Made by a program: the position numbers and the translations under genes
IMG/VR virus record: IMGVR_UViG_3300042371_001057
Coordinates: 1 to 21,657 of that record
Source of the DNA: a virus
Reading direction: 5' to 3' (one strand)
Length of the DNA: 21,657 bases
Notes under the pieces: model-generated
What the model was told of the DNA's origin: nothing
Database searches by the model: none
The model's input: the letters and a program-made list of their open reading frames with translations, nothing else
Shown: positions 3,828 through 19,507 of the stretch, piece after piece
Layout: each line of letters starts with the position of its first letter
How positions within the stretch are numbered: position 1 is the stretch's first letter

Positions 3828-3832
3828 GGGGC

Positions 3833-3857: not shown

Positions 3858-3861
3858 CGGG

Positions 3862-4047: not shown

Positions 4048-4069
4048 GGCCGGGGCCGCGTGTACCGCT

Positions 4070-5263
4070 TTACGACGACGTGAACGGGAGCACGGCCCCG
4101 AGCTGCGCGCGGGCCACAGCTCGCCGCTTGTCGTCGAGGCTCGGGCGCCGGTAGCGTCGGGCGGCCTCGGCGGCGGAGTGTCCCTGCACGCTCGCCCCCG
4201 TCGCCGGCTCCACGTCCGACCGGCCCATCTCGTCCGTGGCCCACCGGCGAATCGCGTGCGACGTGAAGCGCCCCTCGGCGAGCCCCAGTCGAGCGGCGAC
4301 CCGAGCGCAGGCGGCGGGTAGGAGCTTCATCGTGCGGCTCACCGCGGTGACGGGCTGGACCCCGAGCACCCACCGCGCGCGGATGTCGAGGGGCATCTGC
4401 CGGCGGCCCTGCCCCTTCGGGTCCTCGGTGCGGTCGCGCCAGGTGCGGAGGGCCTCGGCCACCTCGTCGCCGATCGGTACCTCGCGCTCGCCCGTCTTCG
4501 CTGCCCCCGCGTGCCGCCCGAGGGAGAGGTAGGGCATCGGCCCGAGCCGGCAGTCGGCCCACTCCAGAGCGGCGATCTCGCCCACGCGAGAGCCCGTGGC
4601 GTACATGAGCCAGATCAAGAGCCCGTAGCGGGGCGGGAGCTCCTCGATGAGCGCAAGGATCTCCTCTCGCGCCGGGGTGCGGGTGGGTCGCTTCGGGCGG
4701 GCGGCGAGCGGCTTTGGCGAGAGGATCGGGCACGTCGTCCACCGCTTCTGCCGGGCGTACTTCAGGACCATCTGGAGGACCGAGACGTCATCGTTGATCG
4801 TCTTCGTCGCGTGTCCCGCGGCGGCCCGAGCGAGCGCGTAGTCCTCGATCGCCGTCTCCTCGAGCGCGTCGAGGACCAGGTCCCCGATCGTGCCCTCGCG
4901 CTTCCGGGAGATGAGCCGCCGCACGCTCGCGGTGTAGGCGAGGAGGGTGCGCGCCGTGATCTGGTCGGCCTCCATCTCGCTCGCCTTCCGCCCGAGCCAG
5001 AGCTCGGCGGCGTCCCGGATCGTGTAGCCGCTGGACTCCCGAGCCGCCGGCGCCGCCGCGAGGTGGTCAGCTACCCACCGGATCGCCTTCGCCTCGATCT
5101 CGGCGTGCGTCCCGCGCCCGAGCACGGGCTTCTGCTTCTCGCCCTTGACGCACGAGTACCCCCTCCACCACCACCGCGCGTCCTTCTCGGTCGGCTCCCG
5201 CTCGGGGTAGACGGTCAGCGGGCCGACGACGATCGGATCGGGCTTGCGGGGAGGGCGGGCCAT
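4070..5263 (-). CDS. int: Tyrosine recombinase integrase
   Basis: 397 aa site-specific recombinase that would insert and excise the phage genome between attP and a host site. All catalytic residues are visible: Arg226 in ATGSRVGEI, Lys256 in AAKTGEREVP, His336 and Arg339 in SHAIRRW, His362 in GHSAAEAARRY, and the nucleophile Tyr371. Residues about 80-175 have the SAM-like core-binding fold (start TIRDAAELWL), and the first about 75 residues probably form the arm-binding domain. The length is typical of phage integrases. The stop lies just beside the candidate attP. No Shine-Dalgarno sequence precedes the ATG; the 27-nt gap from the excisionase-like gene instead holds a short hairpin (5277-5290), which may limit integrase translation. 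Expression is from the leftward operon. Confidence 0.95.
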   Translation of the reverse strand: MARPPRKPDPIVVGPLTVYPEREPTEKDARWWWRGYSCVKGEKQKPVLGRGTHAEIEAKAIRWVADHLAAAPAARESSGYTIRDAAELWLGRKASEMEADQITARTLLAYTASVRRLISRKREGTIGDLVLDALEETAIEDYALARAAAGHATKTINDDVSVLQMVLKYARQKRWTTCPILSPKPLAARPKRPTRTPAREEILALIEELPPRYGLLIWLMYATGSRVGEIAALEWADCRLGPMPYLSLGRHAGAAKTGEREVPIGDEVAEALRTWRDRTEDPKGQGRRQMPLDIRARWVLGVQPVTAVSRTMKLLPAACARVAARLGLAEGRFTSHAIRRWATDEMGRSDVEPATGASVQGHSAAEAARRYRRPSLDDKRRAVARAQLGAVLPFTSS

Positions 5264-5290
5264 CTCAGGAGGCTACGCGCCGACCGGCGC

Positions 5291-5548
5291 TCAGTCCACC
5301 GATACTCGACGTGCCCGGTCGACCGGCGGGCGTCTCGGAGGTGCGGCCACGAGCTGGGCGCCGTCCCGCTCCCGCTTGAGCGCCGCGTTGATCTCGCCGA
5401 CCTCGAAGCGCAGCCCCGCCCCCGGCGTCGGAAGCGCGAGCCCACGCGCCCGAGCCCACGCCAACGCCTTCTCCCGGCCGCAGCCGAGGTGGCGGGCGAG
5501 CTCGTCGTCCGTGAGGAGGTCGCGATCTCCGAGGCCGCGGGGTGCCAT
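5291..5548 (-). CDS. Excisionase-like small HTH protein
   Basis: 85 aa. Residues about 12-60 (LLTDDELARHLGCGREKALA, then the AWARARGL helix and the FEVGEINAALKRE end) fit the MerR/excisionase-type helix-turn-helix (HTH_17-like) used by recombination directionality factors. The tail of about 25 residues is basic and Pro-rich. It stops 27 nt before the integrase start and its own ATG lies 2 nt after the preceding gene's TAG. Excisionases typically bind att arms and bend DNA to favour excision over integration. The fold is read from the sequence; excisionase function is inferred from size and position. A repressor role cannot be excluded. Confidence 0.65.
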   Translation of the reverse strand: MAPRGLGDRDLLTDDELARHLGCGREKALAWARARGLALPTPGAGLRFEVGEINAALKRERDGAQLVAAPPRRPPVDRARRVSVD

Positions 5549-5550
5549 GG

Positions 5551-5985
5551 CTACGGCATCCCCGACACGATCTCAGACGCCATCCGCTCCCCACGCGCCC
5601 GAGCCTTGATGAGCTCACGCAGCCGCTCCACCTCGTCCAGCAGCGCCCCCACGTCCATCCGATACGCCGCCTGCCAGCCGGTGCCGGTGGCGCGGGAGAG
5701 CACCTGACGGATGCCGGTGAGGTCGAGGGATGCGACGGCGGGGGGCCCCTCGTCAATGGCGACGACTTCGGCGCCGGCCATGACTGCGCGCCACCATTCG
5801 ACGGACTCGCGACATGCGCCGCGCTCCCCGTCGACGATGGTGGTGTAGGTCCAGCTTACGAGCCACCCAGATACATCCAGCACGGTCGCCTCGTAGCCGG
5901 GAAGCCCGTACCGGACGACGTCGCCCGCCCGCGGATCCACCCGAGGATCGCGCCCCTCAACATCGGCGGGGGTGGGGCGGGTCAT
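5551..5985 (-). CDS. Hypothetical early-operon protein
   Basis: 144 aa from an ATG that overlaps the upstream gene's stop by 4 nt; the same frame is open much further upstream but would run through the neighbour's coding sequence. Residues about 18-50 (RAGDVVRYGLPGYEATVLDV onward) look like a small SH3-like beta barrel, and residues 108-132 (RMDVGALLDEVERLRELIKA) look like an amphipathic helix or short coiled coil. No known family is recognised. It is one of a run of small coupled genes between the recombination genes and the integrase, typical of accessory genes in leftward phage operons. Confidence 0.6.
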   Translation of the reverse strand: MTRPTPADVEGRDPRVDPRAGDVVRYGLPGYEATVLDVSGWLVSWTYTTIVDGERGACRESVEWWRAVMAGAEVVAIDEGPPAVASLDLTGIRQVLSRATGTGWQAAYRMDVGALLDEVERLRELIKARARGERMASEIVSGMP

Positions 5986-6335
5986 GGCGCACTCTCCAGG
6001 GCGGCGACCAGGGCCTCGGCTTCGGTGGTGTGATAGCCGCCAAACTCGCCACCGTCCCCGATTAGCGACCACATCCGCCCGCCGTTCAGGATCCCAACAA
6101 ACTGGCAAATGGCGCCAACGCCCTCGTCTTCGCACACCTCCCGCACCAACGCGAGGAGACAGCCGAGCGTGGCGGGGTCGGCCAACACCGGGAGTACCTC
6201 GGCTCCCGCGTACCAAGGCCAGTTCTCCCCCACGCGAGCGCGCCACGCGCCGTCCGCGAGGAGCATCCCCGGCATCCATCGCCAGCCCTTGCAGGCGACG
6301 GCGCGGCGGGAGAGGGCGATCTGCTCTTCGGTCAT
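5982..6335 (-). CDS. Hypothetical phage protein with WRWMPGM motif
   Basis: 117 aa. The ATG at 6335 is chosen over an upstream in-frame start because a strong GAGGAGAAG ribosome site precedes it and it overlaps the upstream stop (ATGA). The N-terminal part, ACKGWRWMPGM at about residues 12-22, resembles a motif I associate with many small prophage proteins of unknown function. The C-terminal GYHTTEAEALVAALE resembles the end of proteins that follow a date- or table-like repeat. It has no membrane segment. The gene is coupled on both sides by 4-nt overlaps. The function is unknown. Confidence 0.6.
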   Translation of the reverse strand: MTEEQIALSRRAVACKGWRWMPGMLLADGAWRARVGENWPWYAGAEVLPVLADPATLGCLLALVREVCEDEGVGAICQFVGILNGGRMWSLIGDGGEFGGYHTTEAEALVAALESAP

Positions 6336-6532
6336 GGCTTCTCCTCGCGGCGGTGCTCGCCGCTCTTGATTCGATCCGCACAGAACGACATCCAAGGATC
6401 CCCGCCGTCTTCAGCCCATCGCTCCAAAGCGGCCCCCACGGCGGCGCGCTCTTCCTGTGTCGCCATCTCCACGATGCGGGGCAGCGCATCCACAAGCGCA
6501 TCCAGGGCTTGCACCATCACCGACGCGCTCAT
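6332..6532 (-). CDS. Small hypothetical helical protein
   Basis: 66 aa from an ATG that overlaps the upstream stop (ATGA). The protein looks almost fully helical: VQALDALVDALPRIVEMATQ followed by EERAAVGAALERWAED, with a basic end. No domain is recognised. It is co-translated with genes on both sides in the leftward accessory block. Confidence 0.5.
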   Translation of the reverse strand: MSASVMVQALDALVDALPRIVEMATQEERAAVGAALERWAEDGGDPWMSFCADRIKSGEHRREEKP

Positions 6533-6741
6533 GACCGCAGGCTCCAGAGGTTGACGACCCCGCGGCCCATGTGGCGCGTGCGGGGGACGGTGACGCACTC
6601 GGCGATGCCGAGCAGGTAGAGGGCGCGGAGAGCGCCGCACGCCTGCGCGGTGCTCACGCCGATGGCTTCGGCGACCTCGGCAGCGGGGCTACTCGGCTCG
6701 GCCGCGAGGTAGTCGCGGGCTCGGGCGCGGATGGTGGTCAC
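6529..6741 (-). CDS. Small winged-helix-like protein
   Basis: 70 aa from a GTG that overlaps the upstream stop (GTGA); the longer reading frame upstream is low-complexity Gly/Ala and is not credible. The sequence VTTIRARARDYLAAEPSSPA then EVAEAIGVSTAQACGALRAL, LLGIAECVTV and GRGVVNLWSL follows the helix-turn-helix-wing order of a small winged-helix domain, with the recognition helix near residues 33-45. It could act as a DNA-binding regulator or DNA-mimic partner; no specific family is recognised. Confidence 0.55.
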   Translation of the reverse strand: MTTIRARARDYLAAEPSSPAAEVAEAIGVSTAQACGALRALYLLGIAECVTVPRTRHMGRGVVNLWSLRS

Positions 6742-6944
6742 GCCGGCACCGTGCCCAGCAGCGCCGCCCGGACCTCGGCCCCGTCCGCCGTCAGGATCCA
6801 CCGCCCCGCCGGCCGGGTGGTGGTCGGCCGCATGGACGCCAGCCCGAGCGTGCCCGCCTCGGCCCACAGCGCGGACGAGGGGGCGAGGTGGGGGGCGGCG
6901 AGGGCGTCGCGGAGCTCGGGGGTGAGGCGGGAGAGGCGGATCAC
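6738..6944 (-). CDS. Small hypothetical protein
   Basis: 68 aa, with a GTG start overlapping the upstream stop (GTGA). The order LSRLTPELRDALAA, SALWAEAGTLGLA and RWILTADGAEVRAALLG resembles a reduced winged-helix domain ending in a short wing and an L-T-A-D-G turn, similar in flavour to its neighbour at 6529-6741. No family is recognised with confidence. The gene is coupled to both neighbours. Confidence 0.5.
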   Translation of the reverse strand: MIRLSRLTPELRDALAAPHLAPSSALWAEAGTLGLASMRPTTTRPAGRWILTADGAEVRAALLGTVPA

Positions 6945-7360
6945 GACAGCGCCCCGCCGACGTACCCGCCGCGCCCGGCGGCGAGGGCGTCCTCGGCCGC
7001 TTCGGCGCGGGCGACTACGTCGTGGTAGTCGACCTCAAAGGCTTTGACGCCAGCAAGGACGCCGCGGATGGCTTTCAGCTCGGCGAGCTCGCGGAGCAGC
7101 TCGGCGTCGTCGTGTACCTCGAGAAGGCCGAGTTCCTCGCGGATGGTCCCGACGAGGTCTCTGAGCTGGTCACGCTCGGCGGCGAGGGCGCGCACGCTGT
7201 CCCCCTCCTCGAGCTTGTCGTATGGGTCGACGCCGGCCTCGTCGAGGGCCGCGAGCACGTCGTACAGGCGAGCCTCGAAGCCCGCGGCCTCCTGTCGCCA
7301 GAACTCAACAGTGGCAGCGCCACCCGGGGGGATCGTGACGCCCGATTCAGCCCGCCTCAC
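6941..7360 (-). CDS. Coiled-coil hypothetical protein
   Basis: 139 aa from a GTG overlapping the upstream stop (GTGA). Residues about 15-130 are mostly charged helix with heptad spacing (VRALAAERDQLRDLVGTIRE and AELLRELAELKAIRGVLAGV), a clear coiled-coil pattern. The C-terminus is Gly-rich. Such proteins are frequent in the small-gene blocks of phages and may dimerise, but nothing indicates a specific role. It has no membrane segment or signal peptide. Confidence 0.6.
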   Translation of the reverse strand: MRRAESGVTIPPGGAATVEFWRQEAAGFEARLYDVLAALDEAGVDPYDKLEEGDSVRALAAERDQLRDLVGTIREELGLLEVHDDAELLRELAELKAIRGVLAGVKAFEVDYHDVVARAEAAEDALAAGRGGYVGGALS

Positions 7361-7875
7361 GCCGCCACCGCCAAGTCAGCGCGGCCCGACTCGCTCAGGC
7401 GGTAGCGGGCGGGGCGATGCCCGTCGCTCACCAGCCAACCCTCGGCGGCGAGGCGGCTCACGAAGCGGGCGATGGAGGACTCGGAGAGGCCGGAGAGGCA
7501 CTCGGGCGTGCCGTAGATGATGTGCTCCGCGATCGCCGGGGCCGTGGGACCGTAGACCTCACCCGCGAGCCAGTCCACCGAGGAGAGTACGTGCCGCCTC
7601 CTCTCCGCCGACAGCGGCTTGACCGGCGCGGGGGTGAGGGCGTCGAGGCGGGCCTGGAGGGCGTCGCGCTCGGCCTTCACCACGGCCGCCTCGTCAAGCC
7701 ACCGCTGCGCGTGATCGCGGTAGCTGTCGCGGTCGGACTCGGCGACGTAGAGGGCGCCGCGGAGGCCCTCCACGTCCTCACGGGTAGAGCGGAGGTCGCG
7801 CTCGAGCTGGGTGACGATGGGCGAGACGCGAGCGGCTCGGGGCGTGGCGATGAGTTGGGCGATGCGGGTGAGCAT
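7357..7875 (-). CDS. Coiled-coil plus C-terminal winged-helix protein
   Basis: 172 aa with an ATG start and a GGAG ribosome site in the 54-nt gap after the SSB gene. Residues about 20-80 form a charged helix with heptad pattern (DLRSTREDVEGLRGALYVAE and VKAERDALQARLDAL). Residues about 95-170 look like a winged helix: APAIAEHIIYGTPECLSGLS, then SSIARFVSRLAAEGWLVSDG and RPARYRLSESGRADL as the wing. The fold suggests a DNA-binding protein that dimerises through its N-terminus. The gene is the first of the coupled accessory block, so it may regulate that block; this is inference. Confidence 0.6.
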   Translation of the reverse strand: MLTRIAQLIATPRAARVSPIVTQLERDLRSTREDVEGLRGALYVAESDRDSYRDHAQRWLDEAAVVKAERDALQARLDALTPAPVKPLSAERRRHVLSSVDWLAGEVYGPTAPAIAEHIIYGTPECLSGLSESSIARFVSRLAAEGWLVSDGHRPARYRLSESGRADLAVAA

Positions 7876-7929
7876 GGGGGACTCCGAGGGGGTGAACCGG
7901 GGCCGTGACGTGGCCCCGGCGGTGGGCGG

Positions 7930-8421
7930 CTAGAACGGGATGTCGGCGTCAACGAGCGGGCCCCCGTCGCGCGGGGGCGCGCCGCCCCCGCCGCCCCGGG
8001 GCTCCTCACGGCGCGGCGTGACGCCATCGCCGAACCCGCCCGGGGCCTTGTTGATCCACTTCACCTTGGGCTTCGTCTCGCCCTTGTAGGTGTCGTCCTC
8101 CACCACGATCTCGACGTCCTTGTTGTAGAACGCCTGCCGCACAGCGGTTTCGTCCTCGAGGTCCATCGCCTTGTTCCAGATGCACGCCTCAAAGAGCATG
8201 GCGATCTGAAAGCCGGCCTTCCCCTCGGCGATGAGCCACGCCTTGCGGGTGCGGCAGTCACGCGCCTCGAAGGTGACGATGAGCTGGGCGAGCCCGGCGC
8301 CGTTGGTGCGACCGAACTCGTGGCCGATCACGCGCACGATGTGCTTCCCGACGGGGAGGTAGTTGCCGCCGCCGTTGCCGCTCTCGCGGTCCTTCTTGTA
8401 GTCGCTGGGGTCGAACTTCAT
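7930..8421 (-). CDS. ssb: Single-stranded-DNA-binding protein
   Basis: 163 aa. The final residues are DADIPF, matching the acidic DDDIPF tip through which bacterial SSB proteins recruit partners, and the preceding 30 residues are a Gly/Arg/Pro-rich flexible tail. The N-terminal 125 residues fit an OB-fold-like domain of the phage DUF669/SSB type (YLPVGKHIVRVIGHEFG near 21-35, LIVTFEARDCRTRKAW near 47-62, WINKAPGGFGDG near 121-132). It would coat single-stranded phage DNA in replication and recombination. It lies 3 nt from the Sak4-like ATPase gene, and the two probably work together. Confidence 0.85.
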   Translation of the reverse strand: MKFDPSDYKKDRESGNGGGNYLPVGKHIVRVIGHEFGRTNGAGLAQLIVTFEARDCRTRKAWLIAEGKAGFQIAMLFEACIWNKAMDLEDETAVRQAFYNKDVEIVVEDDTYKGETKPKVKWINKAPGGFGDGVTPRREEPRGGGGGAPPRDGGPLVDADIPF

Positions 8422-8424
8422 GGT

Positions 8425-9426
8425 CTACTTGGCCTCGGGCTGGTTGGTGGAGAGGGGGGAGCCGGAGAACGCGCGGATCGCGCCGGCCCTCCTGCCAGGA
8501 GCGATCTCGGAGCCCTTGGCGGCGCCGAACGAGTCGACCACCTCCATGAGCTGGGCGGTGGTCCAGCCGCGGATCCAGGCCTCGCGCATGGCGTTGGACA
8601 CGTCCTCGGCGGTCGGGGGCGCGTTGGTGTCACGGTTCACGGGGGCGACCGGGCGAGCGCGGCACCGCGCGTCCCGCTCGTCCCACTTGATCGCCTTGGC
8701 GAACGCCTCCCAGGAGAGGGCGATCTCGAAGGGCAGGGCGTACCGATTCTTGGCGTCGAACGCGGGGCGGCGCTCGGTGTAGAGGATGCGGTCGGGCGCG
8801 CGGTCCAGGGCCTTGCCCTTCTTGAGGATGTCGGGGGCGTTGCCGCCGTCCGCGACCCGCACCTTGACGTCAAAGTTGGCGAACAACACGCAGTCGGCCC
8901 AACCCGACCAGAGGGCGGCCGTGTCCTTGTGCATCCGGATCTGGTAGCGGTCGTACGCGGCCTCGGTGGGGTCGTCGAACTTCTTGATCTCGGTGTGGGC
9001 GAGCCCGATCACGGCCATGCGGCGCTTGGTGCGGAGCGCGTCGAGCGAGGTGATGAGCTTGAGCATCTCCTCGGCGGCGATCTTGTAGCCCTTGCCGTAG
9101 CCGCCCTCGATCTTCTCCATCGACTTCTCGCCCTTGGTGAGGTGGAGCTGGAGCAGGCGCTCTAGAAAGTCGAGGGTGTCGAACACGACGACGCGGTAGT
9201 CGTGCGGCTCGTCGGTGAGGGCGCGCACCGCGTCGAGGGCGTCGGCCCACGTCGCCACCTTGATCCTGTGGAGGTCGAGATCCCCGCCGCCGTCCTCGGG
9301 CCCGATGAAGATCGCGTTGGGGGCGCCGGCCGCGAACGTGGTCTTACCCACGCCCTCGACGCCCTGGACGACGATGCGGAGGGGCTCGTGAGACGGGCCG
9401 GTGTGAACGAGCTTCTGGAGTTGCAT
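8425..9426 (-). CDS. sak4: Sak4-like RecA-family ATPase (single-strand annealing)
   Basis: 333 aa from the ATG at 9426, which has an AGGGGA ribosome site; upstream in-frame sequence lies inside the neighbouring gene. Walker A is GVEGVGKT at residues 22-29, and the Walker B-like strand YRVVVFDTLDFL spans 77-88. GLAHTEIKKF (141-150) resembles the strand with the conserved H/polar residue of the AAA_24/Sak4 group. A C-terminal extension (about 255-333) contains AEDVSNAMREAWIRGWTTAQ, a small helical module. Sak4 proteins are phage RecA-like annealing proteins reported to be stimulated by their own SSB, and the SSB gene is adjacent. It would promote recombination of phage DNA. Confidence 0.8.
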   Translation of the reverse strand: MQLQKLVHTGPSHEPLRIVVQGVEGVGKTTFAAGAPNAIFIGPEDGGGDLDLHRIKVATWADALDAVRALTDEPHDYRVVVFDTLDFLERLLQLHLTKGEKSMEKIEGGYGKGYKIAAEEMLKLITSLDALRTKRRMAVIGLAHTEIKKFDDPTEAAYDRYQIRMHKDTAALWSGWADCVLFANFDVKVRVADGGNAPDILKKGKALDRAPDRILYTERRPAFDAKNRYALPFEIALSWEAFAKAIKWDERDARCRARPVAPVNRDTNAPPTAEDVSNAMREAWIRGWTTAQLMEVVDSFGAAKGSEIAPGRRAGAIRAFSGSPLSTNQPEAK

Positions 9427-9437
9427 GGATTCCCCTG

Positions 9438-9881
9438 TCAAAGCGAGTTGCGATCGTTGTGGTCCCGAAGCGCCCAACCTGCCACCGGCCGCCGCTCCAG
9501 CCGAGCCGCGCGATGCTCCGCGTTCACGAGGAGCTTGGGCGTGACCGCGGCGAGGTAGCGGGTGGGGTAGGGGATGACGCCGCGGGCGATGTCCGCGGCG
9601 CTGGGCTCGGCTTCCCACCCCGCGGCGTGCTCGCGAAGGAAGGCGAGGGCCTCGGCCGGAGCGTCGGATCCGAGGAAGAAGAGCTCGCTGTCCGCCCGCG
9701 CAGCCCACGCCCGCTCGTCGGCGGTGAGGCCGGGCGAGCCGCGGAAGGACCGCCCCTTCATGCGGTCCTCGGCGAGCTCGCGGGCGATGGCGAAGTCGTC
9801 CACGATGTCGTCGCGGTCGGTGTGCCGGGCGAGCATCCCGAGCATGTCGGGGGCGATGGGGTCGGCGTAGAGGCTGCTCAT
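9438..9881 (-). CDS. Hypothetical early-operon protein
   Basis: 147 aa from an ATG that overlaps the stop of the small membrane-protein gene upstream (ATGA); a GTG five codons earlier is possible. No domain is recognised. The protein is helical and charged in appearance (ADSELFFLGSDAPAEALAFL near 73-92) with no membrane segment. It precedes the Sak4-like gene by 11 nt in the leftward operon, suggesting a role in the recombination module, but the sequence does not show one. Confidence 0.6.
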   Translation of the reverse strand: MSSLYADPIAPDMLGMLARHTDRDDIVDDFAIARELAEDRMKGRSFRGSPGLTADERAWAARADSELFFLGSDAPAEALAFLREHAAGWEAEPSAADIARGVIPYPTRYLAAVTPKLLVNAEHRAARLERRPVAGWALRDHNDRNSL

Positions 9882-10045
9882 CCGAGCACCCAGCACAGCG
9901 CGTAGGCCGCGCCGAGCGTGCAGAAGAGCGCCGCGCCGGCCTTGAGGCCCTCGACCGGGTCATCCGGCGGCGCCTCGGCGGCCGGGCGAGGCCAGAGGAC
10001 GTACCAGGTCATCATCCACATCGTGGCGGCGGCGAGGAAGATCAC
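9878..10045 (-). CDS. Small two-helix membrane protein
   Basis: 55 aa, read from a GTG at 10045 that overlaps the upstream stop (GTGA) and ending in a TGA that overlaps the next ATG (ATGA). Two hydrophobic segments are clear: residues 2-18 (IFLAAATMWMMTWYVLW) and 37-54 (GAALFCTLGAAYALCWVL), joined by an acidic Pro-rich loop (PRPAAEAPPDDPVEG). The hairpin topology and position early in the leftward operon resemble small membrane proteins that phages use for host interference or superinfection exclusion. The membrane segments are seen; any function is a guess. Confidence 0.65.
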   Translation of the reverse strand: MIFLAAATMWMMTWYVLWPRPAAEAPPDDPVEGLKAGAALFCTLGAAYALCWVLG

Positions 10046-10236
10046 GAGGCCACCACGTCAGCCGCCGCCATCTCATGGAGCCGCCGGCGCACCTCGGCGA
10101 GGTGCGCCTCGGTGGTGGTGAGCTGGGCGAGGGCGGAGACGTAGTCGCGGGCTTCGATGCGGCGACTGACGTAGGCGCCGGTGAGGTCGATCTCGACCAG
10201 GAGGGACGGGAGGGAGAGGGGCGAGGGGGAGGACAT
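10042..10236 (-). CDS. First gene of the leftward operon, small hypothetical protein
   Basis: 64 aa from the ATG at 10236; upstream in-frame codons run into the promoter/operator region and are not credible. The protein starts with a Ser/Pro/Leu-rich stretch (SPSPLSLPSLLVEIDLTGAY), then a long helix (EARDYVSALAQLTTTEAHLA and EVRRRLHEMAA). Only a weak ribosome site (GAGAG) precedes it. As the first gene after the candidate operator and leftward promoter, it would be made early. No family is recognised. Confidence 0.5.
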   Translation of the reverse strand: MSSPSPLSLPSLLVEIDLTGAYVSRRIEARDYVSALAQLTTTEAHLAEVRRRLHEMAAADVVAS

Positions 10237-10257
10237 CGGGCTCTCGGTGACCTCGTC

Positions 10258-10286
10258 ATAGTGACACGTCGGCCCGTTGTCGGCAA
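10258..10286 (-). promoter_or_regulatory. Candidate leftward early promoter (pL-like)
   Basis: On the minus strand, TTGCCG (10286-10281) and CACTAT (10263-10258) are separated by exactly 17 nt, a sigma-70-like arrangement. The -35 element lies inside the operator palindrome at 10276-10295, so a bound repressor would block it. The predicted transcript starts about 15-20 nt upstream of the first leftward gene. Confidence 0.5.
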
Positions 10287-10295
10287 GATGACAAC
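10276..10295. promoter_or_regulatory. Operator-like palindrome in front of the leftward operon
   Basis: GTTGTC and GACAAC flank an 8-nt centre, a perfect 6-bp inverted repeat. A TTGTC-N8-GACAA site of the same spacing lies at 11159-11176 in the repressor/Cro-like switch, so the same regulator probably binds both. The palindrome overlaps the -35 element of the candidate leftward promoter. Confidence 0.55.
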
Positions 10296-10300
10296 ACCCG

Positions 10301-10500
10301 TTAGCGCCGATTAGCGCCAAAATGTATGACGAACTACAGAACCGTCCCCCGCCCGCAGCTTTGGCCCCTTGGAGCTTTTGGAGAGTTGGCGCCCTGGGCA
10401 CCGCGAACTCTTGGAGTTCTTGGGGATGCCCGCCTACGGGTCAATGCCCCGTTCTACGGGTGGCGTAGCGTGTCTCGTCGCCATCGCGACAAGGAGCCCC
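10301..10500. promoter_or_regulatory. Non-coding region with short direct repeats and palindromes
   Basis: No credible gene is seen here. TTAGCGCC is repeated in tandem at 10301-10308 and 10311-10318 (10-nt period). TTGGAG is repeated with a 9-nt period at 10369-10374 and 10378-10383, and again as TTGGAG/TTGGGG at 10411-10425. GAACTC-TTG-GAGTTC (10405-10419) is a perfect 6-bp-armed palindrome, and CTACGGGT occurs at 10433-10440 and 10455-10462. GC content is lower than in the flanking genes. The elements may bind regulators; no function can be assigned from sequence. Confidence 0.4.
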
Positions 10501-10726
10501 ATGCCTCACACGCCGCCCCCCACCGTCCACCCCGAAGGGGGGGGGGGGGGGGCAAATAGTCCAGTTTCCAGGCTCATATAGCGGGCAGGAGCTACAGGAG
10601 CGGCGCGACCGTAGGGGAGAGACGATCGCGGAAGAGCTACTCCGGCTCGTCGGCGGGATGAGCAGCGAGGCGCAGGTGGACACCATCATGTGGGCCCGTG
10701 CTCGCCTTCGGCGTGACTCGCGCTGA
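10501..10726 (+). pseudogene. Small ORF split by a G16 tract: possible phase-variable gene or homopolymer error
   Basis: An ATG at 10501 with AAGGAG at 10491-10496 begins MPHTPPPTVHPE and runs into 16 consecutive G (10537-10552). With 16 G the frame soon ends (stop at 10579-10581). With 15 or 18 G it would join a frame that stays open for 57 more codons from CAA at 10553 to the TGA at 10724, encoding QIVQFPGSYSGQELQE and then a long amphipathic helix (ETIAEELLRLVGG and QVDTIMWARARLRRDSR). The corrected protein would be about 74-75 aa. Its 3' end overlaps the end of the repressor gene on the other strand by about 90 nt. Either the tract is slippery in nature or it was miscounted by sequencing. 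No family is recognised. Confidence 0.45.
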
Positions 10727-11095
10727 CGCAGGGGGGGCGCGGTCGGCGAGCCAGGTGAGGAGCTGCCGGGCCATCGCGCGATCGGCCCCCTCGACGACGG
10801 CGAGGCCTCGGGCGGCCTCGGAGAGGAGCGCGATCTCGCCCTCGTCGAGGCCTGCGACCGCGTCGAGGAGGCCGGTGTACTCGGGCGCGACGGCGACCTC
10901 CGGGCCGGCCACCTCGAAGCTCCCCCCGCACGCCGCGACCCAGGCCTCGATCATCTCCCGCCCGGGCATCCGTGAGCCTCGCTCGACGTGGCAGACGGCG
11001 CCGGCCGTGTAGCCGATGCGCGACGCGAGAGCGGCCTGGGTGAGCCCGCTGGTGCGACGCATGGCGAGGAGGCGCGCGCCGATCGAGACGGTCAT
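10637..11095 (-). CDS. XRE-family transcriptional repressor (CI-like, no peptidase domain)
   Basis: 152 aa. Residues about 5-50 form an XRE/Cro-C1 helix-turn-helix: GARLLAMRRTSGLTQAALAS, RIGYTAGAVCHVERGSRMPG. The remaining region is acidic and helical (LDEGEIALLSEAARGLAVVE) and then a basic, disordered-looking tail; no S24 Ser/Lys protease signature of LexA/CI-type repressors is present, and the protein is short for that class. The ATG at 11095 is preferred because the candidate minus-strand -10 element lies just upstream. Divergence from a Cro-like gene over shared operators makes it the probable lysogeny repressor. Confidence 0.75.
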   Translation of the reverse strand: MTVSIGARLLAMRRTSGLTQAALASRIGYTAGAVCHVERGSRMPGREMIEAWVAACGGSFEVAGPEVAVAPEYTGLLDAVAGLDEGEIALLSEAARGLAVVEGADRAMARQLLTWLADRAPPASARVTPKASTGPHDGVHLRLAAHPADEPE

Positions 11096-11104
11096 GCGCC
11101 GCCC

Positions 11105-11110
11105 TATATG
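11105..11110 (-). promoter_or_regulatory. Candidate repressor promoter -10 element
   Basis: Read on the minus strand this is CATATA within TGCATATAG, which mirrors the TGCATATTG of the rightward promoter. No good -35 element lies 16-19 nt upstream (the best is AACAAG), as expected of a weak, activator-dependent maintenance promoter. The predicted transcript would begin only about 3 nt before the repressor ATG. Confidence 0.4.
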
Positions 11111-11130
11111 CACCCCCCGCGGGATTCCTT

Positions 11131-11147
11131 GTTGCCGTCTGGACAAC
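11131..11147. promoter_or_regulatory. Operator-like site in the divergent promoter region
   Basis: GTTGCC and GACAAC flank a 5-nt centre; the right half matches the GACAA(C) half-site seen at 10276-10295 and 11159-11176, while the left half has one change and the spacing is shorter. It overlaps the -35 element of the rightward promoter. It may be a weaker operator or a half-site pair. Confidence 0.4.
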
Positions 11148-11160
11148 GTGAGTGCATATT
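11132..11160 (+). promoter_or_regulatory. Candidate rightward early promoter (pR-like), leaderless
   Basis: TTGCCG (11132-11137) and CATATT (11155-11160) are separated by exactly 17 nt. The leftward early promoter has the same TTGCCG -35 and the same spacing. The expected transcription start, seven nucleotides after the -10, is 11167, which is the A of the Cro-like ATG, so the mRNA would have no leader. No ribosome site is seen. Confidence 0.5.
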
Positions 11161-11176
11161 GTCACCATGACGACAA
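11159..11176. promoter_or_regulatory. Operator overlapping the Cro-like gene start
   Basis: TTGTC and GACAA flank an 8-nt centre that contains the ATG of the Cro-like gene. The half-sites and spacing match the palindrome at 10276-10295 before the leftward operon. A protein bound here would cover the transcription start of the rightward promoter. Confidence 0.5.
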
Positions 11177-11418
11177 CGCTCGCTTTCGCGTCTCTCGCCC
11201 GATCGTGGCGCCCCGCTGGTCTCTCGCAGGCCGAGGCGTCGCGGCGGCTTCGCGTTGGTCGAAGCACTCTAAATAAGATCGAGCACGGGGAGCGGGGGGC
11301 TGCGACCTGGGTGCTCGACCGGATGCGGGCCGTCTACGCGCTCGACGAGGCCGACATCGCGGCGGGCGTAGCTGCGCTCGCGGCCGATCGGGCGCGTCGG
11401 GTGGCGGGTGGGGAGTGA
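11167..11418 (+). CDS. Cro-like small XRE-family DNA-binding protein
   Basis: 83 aa. Residues about 18-60 (GLSQAEASRRLRVGRSTLNK, IEHGERGAATWVLDRMRAVY) form an XRE-type helix-turn-helix, with recognition helix near 29-39. A GTG at 11152 would add five residues but lies inside the candidate -10 region, so the ATG at 11167 is preferred. It faces the repressor gene across a 71-nt region with operator-like palindromes, the arrangement of lambda-type cI/cro switches; it would repress the maintenance promoter and early promoters during lytic growth. Its stop overlaps the GTG of the next gene (GTGA), placing it at the head of the rightward early operon. Confidence 0.75.
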   Translation: MTTTLAFASLARSWRPAGLSQAEASRRLRVGRSTLNKIEHGERGAATWVLDRMRAVYALDEADIAAGVAALAADRARRVAGGE

Positions 11419-12017
11419 CCTCCCCCGACCACCTCCGCACCCTCGCCCTCATCGTCGCCCACCCCGGCGCCCTCGACGCCGCGGCGATCGGGCAGTCCCT
11501 CTACATGCCGAGGATCCGCGGCACCGGTGACGTGCTCGCAGCGCGGGCCGCCATCCTCGCGCAGGGGACGCGCCCCGTCCGCACCTCGACGCTCCGGCTC
11601 CCCCCGCTGCCCGCTACGCCCCAAGAGCGGCGCCCGTGGTCCACCGACGTCGCCGAGATCCTCACGGTGCTCCGGAGGCGCGGGCTGATCGAGCGCAGGC
11701 GCCCGCCGATGCTGTCCGAGGAGTGGGCCGAGCTCGATCACGAGTGGGCGATGCTCGACTGCGACGACTCCGACGAGCTCGCCGTCAAGCTCGTCGCGAT
11801 GAAGCTGGACACGCCGGACGGGGCGGAGACGAAGGCGAAGCTCCTCTCGAAGCTCATCCTGTGTCAACCCATCACCGTAGCAGGCTGGGTAGGAACCGAC
11901 CCCCCGGGCAACGTGCAACGCGCCGTCGCCGAGCTGGTCGAGCTCGGCTTCGTGATCCCACCCTCGAGGCGGTGGCCGACCGAGGCGGGGATCGCGTTGG
12001 TGGAGGTGGGGCGATGA
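11415..12017 (+). CDS. Putative winged-helix regulator of the early operon
   Basis: 200 aa from a GTG overlapping the Cro-like stop (GTGA). Two winged-helix-like regions are suggested: residues about 70-98 (WSTDVAEILTVLRRRGLIER) and about 150-198, where GNVQRAVAELVELGFVIPPS and RRWPTEAGIALVEV have the helix-then-wing order ending in the T-x-x-G turn of MarR/PadR-like proteins. The middle region (100-145) is acidic. No family is firmly recognised. As the second gene of the rightward operon it might tune early expression, in the place where other phages carry CII-like regulators. Confidence 0.55.
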   Translation: MTSPDHLRTLALIVAHPGALDAAAIGQSLYMPRIRGTGDVLAARAAILAQGTRPVRTSTLRLPPLPATPQERRPWSTDVAEILTVLRRRGLIERRRPPMLSEEWAELDHEWAMLDCDDSDELAVKLVAMKLDTPDGAETKAKLLSKLILCQPITVAGWVGTDPPGNVQRAVAELVELGFVIPPSRRWPTEAGIALVEVGR

Positions 12018-13552
12018 CCCGCAAGCCCACCGAGATCGACGTGGACCTCTTCGCCGGCGGCGGGGGCGCCTCCGAGGGGATCCGGATGGCGACGGGCGCC
12101 GCGCCCTACCTCGCCATCAACCACGACGCGCACGCGATCTCCATGCACGCCGCGAACCACCCTGACACCATCCACCTCCAGGCCGACGTCTTCGAGGTGA
12201 CGCCGCGGCACGCCGTAGGCCGGCAGCGCGTGCGACTGCTGTGGGCGAGCCCGAGCTGTACGCACTTCAGTCGAGCTCGAGGAGGCGCGCCCAAGTCGGC
12301 CCAGCTTCGCTCCCTCGGGTGGGTCGTGGTCGATTGGGCGCGCGACGTGCGCCCCCGCGTCATCATCTGCGAGAACGTCGAGGAGTGGCTCACCTGGGGC
12401 CCGCTCGGCGAGGACGGCCAGCCCGACCCCGCCCAGGTCGGGGACACCTGGCGCGCGTTCGTCGGTGCCCTGCGCGAGCTCGGCTACGTCGTGGAGTGGC
12501 GCACCCTGAACGCCGCCGACTTCGGAGCGCCCACGTCCCGCAAGCGCCTCTTCATGGTCGCCCGGTGCGACGGCGCCGCGATCGTGTGGCCGGAGCCGAC
12601 GCACGGCCCTGGGCGCGCCCTCGCGTACCGCACCGCCGCCGAGTGCATCGACTGGAGCCTCCCCGTCCCGTCGATCTTCGACCGGAAGAAGCCGCTCGCC
12701 GAGGCGACCCAGCGCCGGATCGCGGAGGGGATCCGCCGCTACGTCCTCAACAACCCGCGGCCGTTTATCGTCCAGACGGGACACCAGAGCAACGACGCCG
12801 GCAAGGTGCGGCCTGTCGAGGCGCCGATCTCGACCATCGTGACGAAGGCCGAGCATCTCCTCGTCGCCCCCACGCTCATTCAGACCGGCTACGGCGAGCG
12901 CATCGGGCAAGCCCCGCGCGTGCTCGACATCGGCGCACCGCTCGGCACCGTCGTCGCGGGAGGCGCGAAGCACGCGCTCGTCGCGGCCTGGATGGTGAAG
13001 CACTTCGGGGGCGTCGTCGGGCACGGGCTCGATCGCCCGATCGGGACCGTCACGGCGACCGATCACCACGGCCTCGTGACCGGCTTCCTGGCCCGCGCCC
13101 ATTCGCACGGGTGGGATGGGAACGGGAGCGACACCCGCTCCCTCGAACGGCCGGGCTGGACCGTGACCGCGAAAGACGGAAGCGCGCTCGTCGCCGCCTT
13201 CCTCACTAAGTTCTACGGCGAGGGCAGCACGTCCCAGCCGCTGGACCGGCCCCTCGACACGATCGTGACGAAGGACCGCTTCGGCCTCGTGCAGGTCCTC
13301 GTCGACGGGGAGCCTCACGTCATCGTCGACATCGGCATGCGGATGTTGCAGCCGCGCGAACTCGCGACCGCCCAGGGCTTCGGGCCCGAGTACAAGCTCA
13401 CCGGCACGAAGAGCCAGCAGGTAGCGCGCATCGGCAACAGCGTGTCGCCGTACCCCGCCGCGGCCCTCGTTCGCGCCAACGTGGTGACGTCCTCGCCCGC
13501 CCGCCGCCTCCGTCCTGCTTCGCCGTTGTTCGGCGAGATGGCGGCCAAGTGA
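12014..13552 (+). CDS. dcm: DNA (cytosine-5) methyltransferase
   Basis: 512 aa from an ATG overlapping the previous stop (ATGA). It transfers a methyl group from S-adenosylmethionine to cytosine C5. Motif I is DLFAGGGGASEGI (residues 11-23), the catalytic motif IV is SPSCTHFS with Cys82, motif VI is ENVEEW (120-125), motif VIII is PTSRKRLF (173-180), and motif X is GNSVSPYP (474-481). The usual PCQ is replaced by PSCTHFS, a variant I associate with a phage-encoded subgroup. The target-recognition region (about 265-430) consists of repeated units with P-x-x-TIVT and HHGLV-like steps. No restriction enzyme gene is nearby, so it is probably a solitary enzyme that protects phage DNA. Confidence 0.9.
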   Translation: MTRKPTEIDVDLFAGGGGASEGIRMATGAAPYLAINHDAHAISMHAANHPDTIHLQADVFEVTPRHAVGRQRVRLLWASPSCTHFSRARGGAPKSAQLRSLGWVVVDWARDVRPRVIICENVEEWLTWGPLGEDGQPDPAQVGDTWRAFVGALRELGYVVEWRTLNAADFGAPTSRKRLFMVARCDGAAIVWPEPTHGPGRALAYRTAAECIDWSLPVPSIFDRKKPLAEATQRRIAEGIRRYVLNNPRPFIVQTGHQSNDAGKVRPVEAPISTIVTKAEHLLVAPTLIQTGYGERIGQAPRVLDIGAPLGTVVAGGAKHALVAAWMVKHFGGVVGHGLDRPIGTVTATDHHGLVTGFLARAHSHGWDGNGSDTRSLERPGWTVTAKDGSALVAAFLTKFYGEGSTSQPLDRPLDTIVTKDRFGLVQVLVDGEPHVIVDIGMRMLQPRELATAQGFGPEYKLTGTKSQQVARIGNSVSPYPAAALVRANVVTSSPARRLRPASPLFGEMAAK

Positions 13553-13662
13553 CCCCCCAACAGCTCCCGCTTCTCCCGCCGCCGCGCGACGTGCTCGCCG
13601 ATGCGCGGGCCGTGGCCGAGCGGCACCGGCGCGACGTCAACGCGCTCTCGGGGCGGCGATGA
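13549..13662 (+). CDS. Small 37-aa protein between methyltransferase and resolvase
   Basis: 37 aa from a GTG overlapping the methyltransferase stop (GTGA), ending in a TGA that overlaps the next ATG (ATGA). The sequence is a Pro/Leu stretch (MTPQQLPLLPPPRDVLADAR) followed by a basic helix ending in SGRR. The matched overlaps at both ends support translation, since neither would be expected by chance. It has no membrane segment. The function is unknown. Confidence 0.5.
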   Translation: MTPQQLPLLPPPRDVLADARAVAERHRRDVNALSGRR

Positions 13663-13994
13663 CCTTCCTCATCCCCCTCCGCCTCCCCAGCGCCGCCAAC
13701 CTCCGCGAGCACTGGCGCGTCCGCCACAAGCGCGTCCAAGCCCAGCGCCAACTCGTCGCCATCTACATCGGCGGCAAGCCCCGCCCGACCCTCCCCGTGG
13801 TCGTCACCCTCACCCGCATCGCCCCCCGGGCGCTCGACGGCGACAACCTCCAGAGCGCGTTCAAGGCGATGCGGGACGAGGTCGCGAAGTGGCTCGGCGT
13901 CCCCGACAACCACCCCTCGATCCGGTGGGAGTACGGGCAGAGGCGCGGTGGGGTGGGGGAGTACGGGGTGGTGATCGTGGTGGGGGCGGTATGA
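13659..13994 (+). CDS. rusA: RusA-like Holliday-junction resolvase
   Basis: 111 aa, ATG overlapping the previous stop. RusA-type enzymes are small dimers that cut four-way DNA junctions during phage recombination and clear branches before packaging. The characteristic acidic cluster is visible: Asp60 and Asp62 in ALDGDNLQSAFKAMRDEVAK, Lys69 and Asp73 in the same helix, and Asp83 in WLGVPDN. An N-terminal strand pair with basic residues (LREHWRVRHKRVQAQRQLVA) precedes it. The length fits the family. In this operon it sits between the methyltransferase and replication genes, where many lambdoid phages carry it. Confidence 0.8.
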   Translation: MTFLIPLRLPSAANLREHWRVRHKRVQAQRQLVAIYIGGKPRPTLPVVVTLTRIAPRALDGDNLQSAFKAMRDEVAKWLGVPDNHPSIRWEYGQRRGGVGEYGVVIVVGAV

Positions 13995-15070
13995 AGCCCC
14001 AGGACCGCACGCGCGCGATCCTGCGCTCGACGCTCGACGCCGAGTGCCGGCTCGTCGCCATCGCCCTCGCCGACCACATGGACGTCCACGACGAGGCGTA
14101 CCCGTCCGTGGGCACGCTCGCGACCGAGACGGCCTTGTCCGAGCGCACGGTGCAGGACGTGATCCGGCACGGGCTCGCCCATCGGTGGGTGCAGGCGAGG
14201 GGCACGAACGGCGGGCGCCGCACGCTCACGATCCTGTGGGCCTACCTCACCGCGGAGCATCCGTCGCGGAAGGCGGGGGTGGAGAAGAAGGCCAACCCCC
14301 GCACGCGGCGCACCGGTGCGCCGCTCGCACCGGTGCGCCCGGCGCACCCCCCACCCCCGCACGCGGCGCACCCCTCCCCCGCGCCGGGCGCACCGGTACC
14401 CCCGCACGCGGCGCACCCCATGGGTGCGCCGGGCGCACCCGAAGCGTGTACAGATGAAGCGACCACTGAACCGCCCAGGGGGGGGCCGGTTCCCGTTGTC
14501 TACCTCGACCCCTTCGAGGACCCCAGCGACCCCTTCTACCTCCCCCCCGAGGACCGCCTCCCCGCCCAGCCCACCCCAGCGCCTCGCCCTCCCGTCGCGC
14601 CTGTAGCCCCTCCCCAGCGCGCCAAGGGCCCGACCCGCCCGTCTCTCCCTCCCGGTGTCCCGAGCGACCTCCCAGCCCTTCTCAGCGCGGGCCCGGGGCA
14701 TCGTGGGGGCGAGGTCGACGGGCTCACCAGCGTGGGGCGGATCTCGGTCATCCCGTGCCTCCTCGGCGCGGGGATCGAGGACGCCGAGATGCTCCTCTCC
14801 ATCGCCCCCGAGCGGCTCCCGTTCCAGGGCGTGAAGGACGCGGTGGCCCTCCGCCTCCGCGCCCACCTCCGCGCGCGGTGGGGCCTCGAGCTCGGGTGTC
14901 TCGCCGAGGCCGTCGCTGCGCCCGAGCCCGAAGCTCCGCCCCCGCCCATCATCCCCGGCGCCCCGCAGTACCCGCACGAGAGTGGGTACCGGTTCGCGGT
15001 GCGGCGGGAGAACGAACGCAGGTCGGGGATCCGGCCGTTGACCTACTTCCCCGAGGCCGCCAATGGCTGA
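13991..15070 (+). CDS. Replication initiator-like protein (lambda O-like)
   Basis: 359 aa; the ATG overlaps the resolvase stop (ATGA), and the longer open frame upstream overlaps two genes. Residues about 15-80 contain a helix-turn-helix of the phage replication-protein type (YPSVGTLATETALSERTVQD, VIRHGLAHRWVQARG). Residues about 100-155 are a Pro/Ala/His linker with repeats of HAAHP and GAP, and a second Pro-rich region spans about 170-230. The C-terminal part (about 245-305: ISVIPCLLGAGIEDAEMLLS and KDAVALRLRAHLRA) is helical. In lambda the O protein binds iterons inside its own gene, and an iteron-like cluster lies here inside the linker-coding DNA. The following gene looks like a helicase loader. 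Origin-binding is inferred. Confidence 0.65.
   Translation: MKPQDRTRAILRSTLDAECRLVAIALADHMDVHDEAYPSVGTLATETALSERTVQDVIRHGLAHRWVQARGTNGGRRTLTILWAYLTAEHPSRKAGVEKKANPRTRRTGAPLAPVRPAHPPPPHAAHPSPAPGAPVPPHAAHPMGAPGAPEACTDEATTEPPRGGPVPVVYLDPFEDPSDPFYLPPEDRLPAQPTPAPRPPVAPVAPPQRAKGPTRPSLPPGVPSDLPALLSAGPGHRGGEVDGLTSVGRISVIPCLLGAGIEDAEMLLSIAPERLPFQGVKDAVALRLRAHLRARWGLELGCLAEAVAAPEPEAPPPPIIPGAPQYPHESGYRFAVRRENERRSGIRPLTYFPEAANG
14296..14439 (+). repeat. Iteron-like repeat cluster inside the initiator gene, candidate origin
   Basis: A 19-bp sequence, CCCCCGCACGCGGCGCACC, occurs three times without change at 14296-14314, 14354-14372 and 14399-14417. Its core GGCGCACC occurs six times and the reverse complement GGTGCGCC three times in this 144-nt stretch. 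Three head-to-head pairs form long palindromes, including a perfect 20-bp one at 14305-14324. A less GC-rich segment follows (14441-14473). The arrangement resembles phage origins placed inside the initiator gene, but the same DNA also encodes a Pro-rich linker. Confidence 0.5.
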
Positions 15071-15746
15071 GCCCTTTCAGATCGAGGAGATCCTCGCGCA
15101 CCTCAACGGCCTCTACGGCGGGCGCTTCAACCCCGACGCGGCCAAGCGGAAGGCGTGGATCGAGGTGCTCGGGCCGTTCACGAACGACGAGCTGTGGAAC
15201 GCGACGCGCGCGACGCTCGCGGACCCCAAGTGCTTCGAGTGGGCGCCGACCCCGATGCAGATCGCGGCGAACGTGCCGAAGCGGGTGGGGGCCACCGTCG
15301 GGGGCAAGGTGGGTGGGTGCCCTGACTGCGCGGCCCTCGACGGCTGGCGCGAGATGGCGATCCGCTTCGCCCTCCCCGACGGCCGGCAGGACGCGCGGGT
15401 GGTCCTCGCGGCGTGTGGATGCGCCCTTGGGGAGACCCGGCGGGTCGCGGGCGTGCTCCCGTGGCGGGAGCAGTGGGCGAGGTGGCAGGGCATCAAGGCC
15501 CGGCTCCTCGCGGACGGTGGGGAGATCATCGGGGCGGTCTACACGAGCGAGCGCCGGCCCCTGCTGACGGACGAGGACCGCTACGCGCCCGACGTGCTCG
15601 GGCGACTGGAGCGGAAGCCGAGGGCCGCGGCGGTGGCGCTGCTCACGGAGGCGGTGCGCGGGCAGGACTCGCACGCGTGGGCGCGGGAGCGGCAGGTGGA
15701 GCGGGAGCGGGAGCGGGACGAACGTGGGTGGGAGGAAGCATCATGA
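15063..15746 (+). CDS. Putative helicase loader / replication protein (lambda P-like)
   Basis: 227 aa, overlapping the end of the initiator gene by 8 nt. Residues about 6-70 are helical: EEILAHLNGLYGGRFNPDAA, then ELWNATRATLAD and WAPTPMQIAANVP, a pattern seen in phage helicase loaders whose N-terminal domain ends in a T-P-T-x-x-x-I-A turn. Cys86, Cys89, Cys118 and Cys120 (CPDC, CGC) could bind zinc. The C-terminal 30 residues are extremely Arg/Glu-rich and low in complexity. The position after the O-like gene makes a loader that recruits host DnaB the most likely role, but no decisive motif is present. Confidence 0.5.
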   Translation: MAEPFQIEEILAHLNGLYGGRFNPDAAKRKAWIEVLGPFTNDELWNATRATLADPKCFEWAPTPMQIAANVPKRVGATVGGKVGGCPDCAALDGWREMAIRFALPDGRQDARVVLAACGCALGETRRVAGVLPWREQWARWQGIKARLLADGGEIIGAVYTSERRPLLTDEDRYAPDVLGRLERKPRAAAVALLTEAVRGQDSHAWARERQVERERERDERGWEEAS

Positions 15747-16318
15747 GTCGAGCACTTCAGGCGGCCGCGCGCCGCCCCTTGGACGCCTACCACACCCCCG
15801 ACCCGCTCGCCGCGGCCCTGGTGGGGCTTCTGCCCATCGAGCCGACGGACACGGTGATGGAGCCTCACGCGGGCGGTGGGGCGTTCGTGCGGGCCTTGCT
15901 CCCGGTCGCGCGCCGAGTCCACGCGTGCGACGCGAACCCCGAAGCCGAGGGGCTCCACATCGACGGGGTGTCAGCCTCGTTCGGGGGCGTGGACTTCCTG
16001 CAGTTGAAGTACGGGCGGGCCCGGTGGATCGTCGGCAACCCACCCTTTCGCGGCTTTGAGGCGCACGTCGAGCACGCGCTAACCCTCTCCCGCCACGTCG
16101 CCTTCCTGCTCCGGCTCGCCTCGATGGAGACCGCCGCGCGGGCGCCCATGTGGCAGCGGTGGCCGCTCCGGAAGGTGTGGGTGCTCGCCGAGCGCCCGAG
16201 CTTTACGGGCGGGGGCACCGACAGCGCCGCCTACGGGTGGTTCTGGTTTGACCGGCTCTACGAGGGCCCTGCCGAGATCGTGCCTGGGTGGTCGTGGAAG
16301 GGTGGGGGTGTCTCGTGA
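15743..16318 (+). CDS. DNA adenine (N6) methyltransferase
   Basis: 191 aa from an ATG overlapping the previous stop. The S-adenosylmethionine-binding motif is EPHAGGGAFVRALL (residues 40-53), Asp63 in ACDANP is the expected acidic residue after strand 2, and the catalytic motif is NPPF (99-102), the signature of N6-adenine or N4-cytosine amino-methyltransferases. After NPPF the sequence continues HVAFLLRLASMET and ERPSFTGGGTDSAAYGWFWF, as in phage enzymes of this group. It is shorter than bacterial Dam and lacks an obvious separate target-recognition domain. Its likely role is modification of phage DNA against restriction. Confidence 0.8.
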   Translation: MSRALQAAARRPLDAYHTPDPLAAALVGLLPIEPTDTVMEPHAGGGAFVRALLPVARRVHACDANPEAEGLHIDGVSASFGGVDFLQLKYGRARWIVGNPPFRGFEAHVEHALTLSRHVAFLLRLASMETAARAPMWQRWPLRKVWVLAERPSFTGGGTDSAAYGWFWFDRLYEGPAEIVPGWSWKGGGVS

Positions 16319-16776
16319 TCGCCGACGAAGGCCCGGGGGCGATCCGCTTCGGCGCCTACCTCGCCGCCCCCGAGGGCAAGGTGTGGCCCGACGGCGCGTG
16401 TCGGTGGCGCGTGACGGGGCCGGGGGTGTCGCGGCTGACGCGGCTGCTCCGGCGGGCTGACGCGATGGGGGAGGTGTACCGATGGCTCCAGGAGACCGGG
16501 ATGGGCGGGGTGCGGCCGGCGGCCTGGGTCGAGGTGGTGCCGCAGGAGCCGCTGAAGCGGAAGACGTACCGACAGGTCGAGGCCGAGGAGCCGCTTCCGG
16601 CGTGGGTGGTGGTGGACGAGGGGAAGCCCCTGGGCGTGTGCATCGTCGCCTACTGTGGGGCGGTGGTGGTGACGCGGCGGCTGTGCGGGGCCCATGACCG
16701 GAAGGCGCGGGCGCAGGGGATCCGGGAGCGGATCGGGCCCCCAGCGGTCGTGAAGGCGAAGGGCGTGTGGCGGTGA
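16315..16776 (+). CDS. Zinc-motif hypothetical protein
   Basis: 153 aa from a GTG overlapping the methyltransferase stop (GTGA). The C-terminal part contains Cys109, Cys114, Cys124 and His127 in VCIVAYCGAVVVTRRLCGAH, the C-x4-C-x9-C-x2-H spacing of a small zinc-binding motif common in phage proteins, followed by a basic helix (DRKARAQGIRERI). The N-terminal part is unrecognised. It may bind nucleic acid; the gene sits between the adenine methyltransferase and the sigma-like gene, coupled at both ends. Confidence 0.55.
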   Translation: MIADEGPGAIRFGAYLAAPEGKVWPDGACRWRVTGPGVSRLTRLLRRADAMGEVYRWLQETGMGGVRPAAWVEVVPQEPLKRKTYRQVEAEEPLPAWVVVDEGKPLGVCIVAYCGAVVVTRRLCGAHDRKARAQGIRERIGPPAVVKAKGVWR

Positions 16777-17156
16777 GCGGGGCGCCCGACCCTCGGGTCT
16801 CGCCTCCCATCGGCCACGCGATCAAGGCGGCTCCAGACCTGTCCGACCCGAAGGTGGTCCGGCTCGCCCGTCGCATGTACTTCAGCCGCTTCGCTGACCA
16901 GGTGACCGAGGCCGGGATCGAGGCAGAGGACGGGCTTCAAGAGGTGCTCTTGCGTTTGTTCCTGAAGTCGCAGTCGCCATCGAGGTGGAACCCCGAACGG
17001 GGCGGGCTGACGACCTGGCTGTTCGTCGCGACCGGGGGGGTCGTGCTCAACATGATCGACAAGCACCGACGGTTCGTGAGGCGGGCGGGCGAGGTCTGCA
17101 ACGAGGGCGATGCGGCGTGCATGGCTCGTGCGGTTGAGGCCACTGGCGACGAATAA
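16773..17156 (+). CDS. Short sigma-70 region-2-like protein, candidate late regulator
   Basis: 127 aa from a GTG overlapping the previous stop (GTGA). Residues about 25-105 follow the sigma-70 region 2 pattern: VVRLARRMYF, then EAEDGLQEVLLRLFL (50-64), a WNPERGGLTTWLFVATG segment (72-88) and NMIDKHRRF (93-101). The D-x-x-Q-E core and the W-F-R-x-x-T-W segment are the features that contact core RNA polymerase and the -10 DNA. No region 4 follows, so it could not read a -35 by itself. It is the last gene before the terminase operon, the place where lambdoid phages carry the late antiterminator. Activation of late genes is therefore a reasonable inference. Confidence 0.65.
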   Translation: MSGAPDPRVSPPIGHAIKAAPDLSDPKVVRLARRMYFSRFADQVTEAGIEAEDGLQEVLLRLFLKSQSPSRWNPERGGLTTWLFVATGGVVLNMIDKHRRFVRRAGEVCNEGDAACMARAVEATGDE

Positions 17157-17955: not shown

Positions 17956-18014
17956 CAGTCCCGGCCCTACCCACCCAACGCCGGGCACGGGTAGGAACCG
18001 GACACGAGCGCAGC

Positions 18015-19501: not shown

Positions 19502-19507
19502 GGCACT

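Follow-up and report, generated by a model that had tools for sequence, protein, structure and literature searches.

The DNA analyzed here (the window) is the whole 21,657-base record IMGVR_UViG_3300042371_001057, a fragment of an uncultured high-GC temperate phage. The left-reading side carries the integrase together with SSB-like and Sak4-like genes, and the right part carries an HTH repressor, a cro-like gene, a C5 methylase, and the terminase. A small rightward gene with a G tract near its 5′ end (the tract gene) lies between them, so that the left operon is followed by the tract gene, the repressor, and the cro-like gene in turn. The repressor-like gene (HTH_31/HTH_3, 10637–11095, minus strand) is convergent with the tract gene, and the cro-like HTH_31 gene (11167–11418, plus strand) is divergent from the repressor. 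Directly after the cro-like and MarR-like genes comes the C5-cytosine methylase gene (12011–13552, Pfam E-value 2e-28), which contains no homopolymer tract. A second record, IMGVR_UViG_3300042390_000674 (G004), matches window positions 1–7495 and 15798–21657 at 99.95–100% and corresponds to the same phage cut at a different place. Combined, both records give a circular map of ~33 kb, and since they close this circle only jointly, neither is complete; G004 lacks window positions 7496–15797, the tract region included. Regarding more distant relationships, alignment of the terminase against 85,000 bacterial and archaeal genomes gave no match, nor did cultured phages queried with terL, the portal, and the DNA of the region, or plasmids searched with the integrase, and for the Sak4-like ATPase distant matches only were obtained.

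The G16 homopolymer (10537–10552, plus strand), a putative slippage tract, is unique in the window, where no other G/C run exceeds 8 bases. It is separated by 33 nt from the ATG at 10501, which has a Shine-Dalgarno-like (SD) AAGGAG (10491–10496, plus strand) 4 nt on its 5′ side. With 16 G, as assembled, the frame of this ATG comprises 26 codons plus a stop (10501–10581, plus strand), translating as MPHTPPPTVHPEGGGGGANSPVSRLI with the stop codon at 10579–10581, and this corresponds to the OFF state. With 17 G, the stop would fall at 10557–10559, and only 15 or 18 G, that is, a number divisible by three, joins the ATG to QIVQFPGSYSGQELQERRDRRGETIAEELLRLVGGMSSEAQVDTIMWARARLRRDSR, whose stop is at 10724–10726. 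This downstream frame (10553–10726, plus strand) has 57 codons plus a stop, and no ORF starting at ATG, GTG, or TTG was found to reach it at 16 G. The product would then be of 74 or 75 residues at 15 or 18 G, and of 26 residues at 16 G. The original prediction described an ORF with a ribosome site that enters 16 G, soon stops, and would join a 57-codon frame at 15 or 18 G, and both the early stop and the joining are reproduced by the reading-frame analysis. Long homopolymers close to the 5′ ends of genes are established sites of phase variation (PMC2831843), and as in a contingency locus, the homopolymer is placed early in the ORF and its length decides between a full and a truncated product. 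A search of IMG/VR for the flanking DNA with a variable tract, in a scan from which the closest records may have been absent, returned no other contig and thus no second length.

The region around the tract gene also contains a cluster of operator-like palindromes. The motif TTGTC-N8-GACAA is present at four sites with at most one mismatch in the window, against 0.15 expected, all of them inside 10277–11176. The first one, TTGTCGGCAAGATGACAA (10277–10294), is exact and lies upstream of the leftward early operon; the second, TCGTCGCCATCGCGACAA (10475–10492, one mismatch), overlaps the first bases of the tract gene's SD; the third, TTGTTGCCGTCTGGACAA (11129–11146, one mismatch), lies between the repressor and the cro-like gene; and the fourth, TTGTCACCATGACGACAA (11159–11176), is exact and overlaps the start of the cro-like gene. 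No additional sites with up to two mismatches are found in the window, none of 100 shuffles exceeded one site, and other spacer lengths give either no sites or a pair of overlapping variants of those already listed, with no comparable cluster. Since inspection of the two exact sites led to the choice of the motif, a fair statistic comprises only the two one-mismatch sites, both being inside the same 0.9-kb stretch. As far as can be read from the sequence, this placement is the layout of phage-repressor operators, in agreement with the earlier proposal that the gene lies between two early control regions. Because operator-like sites accompany the left operon, the tract gene, and the repressor/cro pair, the tract gene is apparently part of the regulon of the repressor, through these putative operators. 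Searches for sigma-70 promoters and terminators found none.

The same array bears on the possibility that the tract is an assembly chimera or a poly-G base-calling artifact linking unrelated sequences. Poly-G artifacts are common in two-color sequencing, but the motif is found on both flanks of the tract (10277 and 10475 on one side, 11129 and 11159 on the other), so the DNA on the two sides belongs together and a chimeric join is unlikely. Moreover, the order of left operon, tract gene, repressor, and cro-like gene fits a temperate-phage control region, and artifactual poly-G is placed at contig ends, as in several contigs of the survey described below, and not internally. An origin of this kind would be extremely improbable.

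An open frame by itself is little proof of a gene. In a composition-matched simulation, 57 codons remain open by chance in ~26% of cases for one given frame and in ~59% for any of the three. The codon score of the downstream frame (0.06) is the highest among the six frames, yet only 2.5% of true-gene windows score lower, and 11% of wrong-frame open windows reach the same value. The final ~27 codons (90 nt) of the repressor gene overlap the downstream frame, and in this overlap, the plus-strand frame scores 0.15 versus −0.14 for the repressor frame. Also, the homology of the repressor to that of a relative (G003, see below) ends before the overlap, and together with the better score, this suggests that the overlap may be part of the plus-strand gene. 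For the isolated downstream domain, AF2 run on the single sequence predicts a two-helix hairpin (helices 11–32 and 38–56, mean pLDDT of 75). A protein search of IMG/VR with the 57-residue frame gave no match, and the best E-value in a PDB fold search with the helical hairpin was 3.7.

The weak codon score, the probability of chance openness, and the lack of a homologue or family would fit a decaying or non-coding stretch, with a tract that arose by neutral expansion between genes, behind the repressor, and a downstream frame left open by chance. Nonetheless, the window gene has an SD, an ATG, and an operator-like site, and its frame outscores that of the repressor where both overlap, whereas in G003 the sole long homopolymer occurs at the same place and precedes a frame whose coding signal is clear. 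Given these observations, we consider a non-coding origin unlikely.

The G003 record has 27,495 bases and shares with the window 81% identity in terL, 73% in the portal, and 61% in a scaffold-like protein, and its repressor is 32% identical to that of the window over about 100 residues. It bears a C18 tract (L014:18–35) directly 3′ of an ATG, and no other G/C run of the record exceeds 9. Only one further run is longer than 8, a C9 at L014:4160–4168. The contig end of G003 lies 17 nt from the C18 tract, consistent with a loss of reads at G tracts (PMC9187656). The small gene that contains the C18 reads rightward and converges on the HTH repressor, beyond which lies a divergent HTH_31 gene; this gene order matches that of the window. 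With 18 C, the frame of the ATG has a non-coding codon score (−0.94); the frame joined at 17 C has a coding-like score of 0.23, or 0.34 if counted from a GTG behind the tract. In its assembled form, the small gene of G003 is therefore OFF as well, and 17 C would bring the ATG and the coding-like frame together. The GTG 3′ of the tract is a possible start as well, and in that case the tract would be part of the leader.

The small protein of G003 is likewise predicted to be a helical hairpin, and in both predictions the second helix begins near M-S/T-x-E. No sequence similarity is detected between the tract proteins of the two phages, their local alignment being no better than that of shuffled sequences, and Pfam and PHROG searches with both gave no match. 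The tract position is thus retained in the relative; the base (G versus C) and the surrounding protein are not. Absence of the downstream frame from relatives had been named as an observation that would speak against a switch, and G003 does have a comparable small frame at the same place, although with no detectable similarity in sequence. A more distant relative (G005, 50% in terL) has no long tract and no detectable match to the repressor, and for both reasons it is not informative.

The presence of G in the window and C in G003 is more compatible with slippage than with a strand-specific RNA signal or structure. If the tract acted as a nucleic acid structure (G-quadruplex, pause, or terminator) or through slippage of the RNA polymerase, instead of as a DNA length switch, its placement between two convergent genes would be suitable, and quadruplex formation by G16 is possible in principle. 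However, G003 carries C on the same strand, so the strand polarity is not conserved, an argument that applies to the structures and leaves slippage of the RNA polymerase untouched, and neither a terminator-like stem nor an Rfam match was found when searched. Such a mode of action is very unlikely.

A different concern is the assembled length itself. The tract could be real with its length miscounted, in which case the usual form of the gene would be intact (15 or 18 G) and ON at all times, the OFF state being a homopolymer error. Illumina reads fail or miscount in G tracts (PMC9187656), and in another case the tract length differed between two methods (PMC10877375). Also, the assembled lengths break the frame in both phages, an outcome that two random length errors would often produce. 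Against a gene that is permanently ON, even ~15 bases would leave the tract very prone to slippage during replication, making a fixed state unlikely, and a phage would be expected to lose a tract that it does not need. A miscounted but constant gene is, then, an explanation to which we give a small share of the probability, similar to that of a non-coding stretch.

A survey of ~2.9 million viral contigs for an SD, an ATG, and then G14 or longer within 33 nt retrieved 46 contigs with this layout other than the window, part of them being contig-end artifacts. In L025 (IMGVR_UViG_3300036791_000427), the tract belongs to an HTH_3 regulator (13414–13707, Pfam E-value 4e-8) located between an integrase and an HTH_17 gene. 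Its ORF is readable only through a G16 placed about 12 codons after the ATG and is in frame at 16. HTH queries for repressor-adjacent tract genes in the survey loci retrieved L025 only, plus a weak match in L042. Moreover, C5-cytosine methyltransferase-like genes with G14–15 tracts are present in L026, L031, L034, L043, L053, L060, and L062, each tract being located either at motif I or ahead of the ERSG.WREM block, and some of the frames are broken at the assembled length; it is possible that these tract-bearing viral methylases are phase-variable. Additionally, an element of the form CTACGCAACATAATTCAA-G(14–17)-TAGTTTAGGTAAG is conserved in ten contigs (L022, L028, L033, L038, L048, L054, L056, L059, L063, and L065), two of which, L033 and L054, are 98% identical and differ in tract length (15 versus 14); after the tract of this element, no long ORF is found in any frame. 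Taken together, the survey results indicate that start-proximal poly-G tracts of variable assembled length do occur in phages, albeit rarely.

The window locus shares several features with known systems. As in the poly-G/poly-C contingency loci of bacteria, such as the polyG genes of Campylobacter jejuni and the pilus G tracts of Bifidobacterium breve (PMC9187656), a long G tract is proximal to the 5′ end, the start is cut off at some lengths, and the second frame lacks a start of its own. Unlike them, the window and its relative are phages, the tracts have 16 to 18 bases, and the gene is a very small one in an immunity region. In addition, variation is measured in bacterial contingency loci, whereas the window locus is known from one assembled length and its product is apparently not a surface structure. 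In the Pgl system of Streptomyces coelicolor, a G8 tract in pglX varies at 1e-2 to 1e-4 (PMC4365076). Both this case and the window involve a high-GC replicon, a G tract within an ORF, and the conflict between phage and bacterium, but Pgl is a host defense gene with measured variation and the tract gene belongs to a phage. The L025 regulator resembles the window in having an ATG-tract-ORF arrangement with G16 in a phage lysogeny module, and differs in that its tract lies within the regulator gene, which is ON at 16 and has no sequence similarity to the window gene. Finally, lambda-type immunity regions also place an accessory gene, with operators on both sides, between the repressor and the operon read leftward early on; in contrast to them, the window gene runs toward the repressor in convergent orientation, contains a homopolymer, and has a putative operator to itself. 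In the literature, where subscription papers were thinly covered, no homopolymer switch was found in a lysogeny-control region of a phage.

Based on this evidence, the locus is probably a poly-G contingency locus in a phage immunity region, where a small early gene is toggled by slippage. This small early gene would start at 10501, directly behind a repressor operator, with the G tract early in its sequence. When phage or host DNA is replicated, slippage would alter the tract by one or two bases, and this change would either join the start codon to the helical domain of ~57 residues or sever it from the domain, the assembled 16 G being OFF and 15 or 18 G being ON. Also, occupancy of the operators by the repressor would gate transcription of the tract gene, and its product would then depend on two conditions, an ON genome, which only a subset of the phages would have, and operators free of the repressor. 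The product itself may be a small protein that modulates the circuit of lysogeny or of early takeover, this being the most likely function given the convergence with the repressor and the place between two operator regions. We infer slippage in nature, the function of the operators, and translation of the gene from the arrangement described above, and the role of the product from its position.

Regarding the initial idea of an on/off product that could affect lysis-lysogeny or the interaction with the host, the switch gains from a second phage with a frame-breaking homopolymer at the syntenic place and from the location of the gene inside the operator-like array, and an effect on lysis-lysogeny or the host is suggested by this position only. 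Overall, the tract gene looks like a random on/off switch within a lysis-lysogeny control region. More tentatively, this phage lineage may keep a slippage switch in its immunity region, with a repressor-controlled gene that would be ON in a fraction of the virions and would diversify lysis-lysogeny or superinfection outcomes before infection, and regulators of the L025 type may use the same device. Homopolymer switches are familiar from surface and defense genes of bacteria. If the switch described here is real, heterogeneity in the decision of a phage could be carried by the DNA of the individual particles, beyond what arises from noise in expression.
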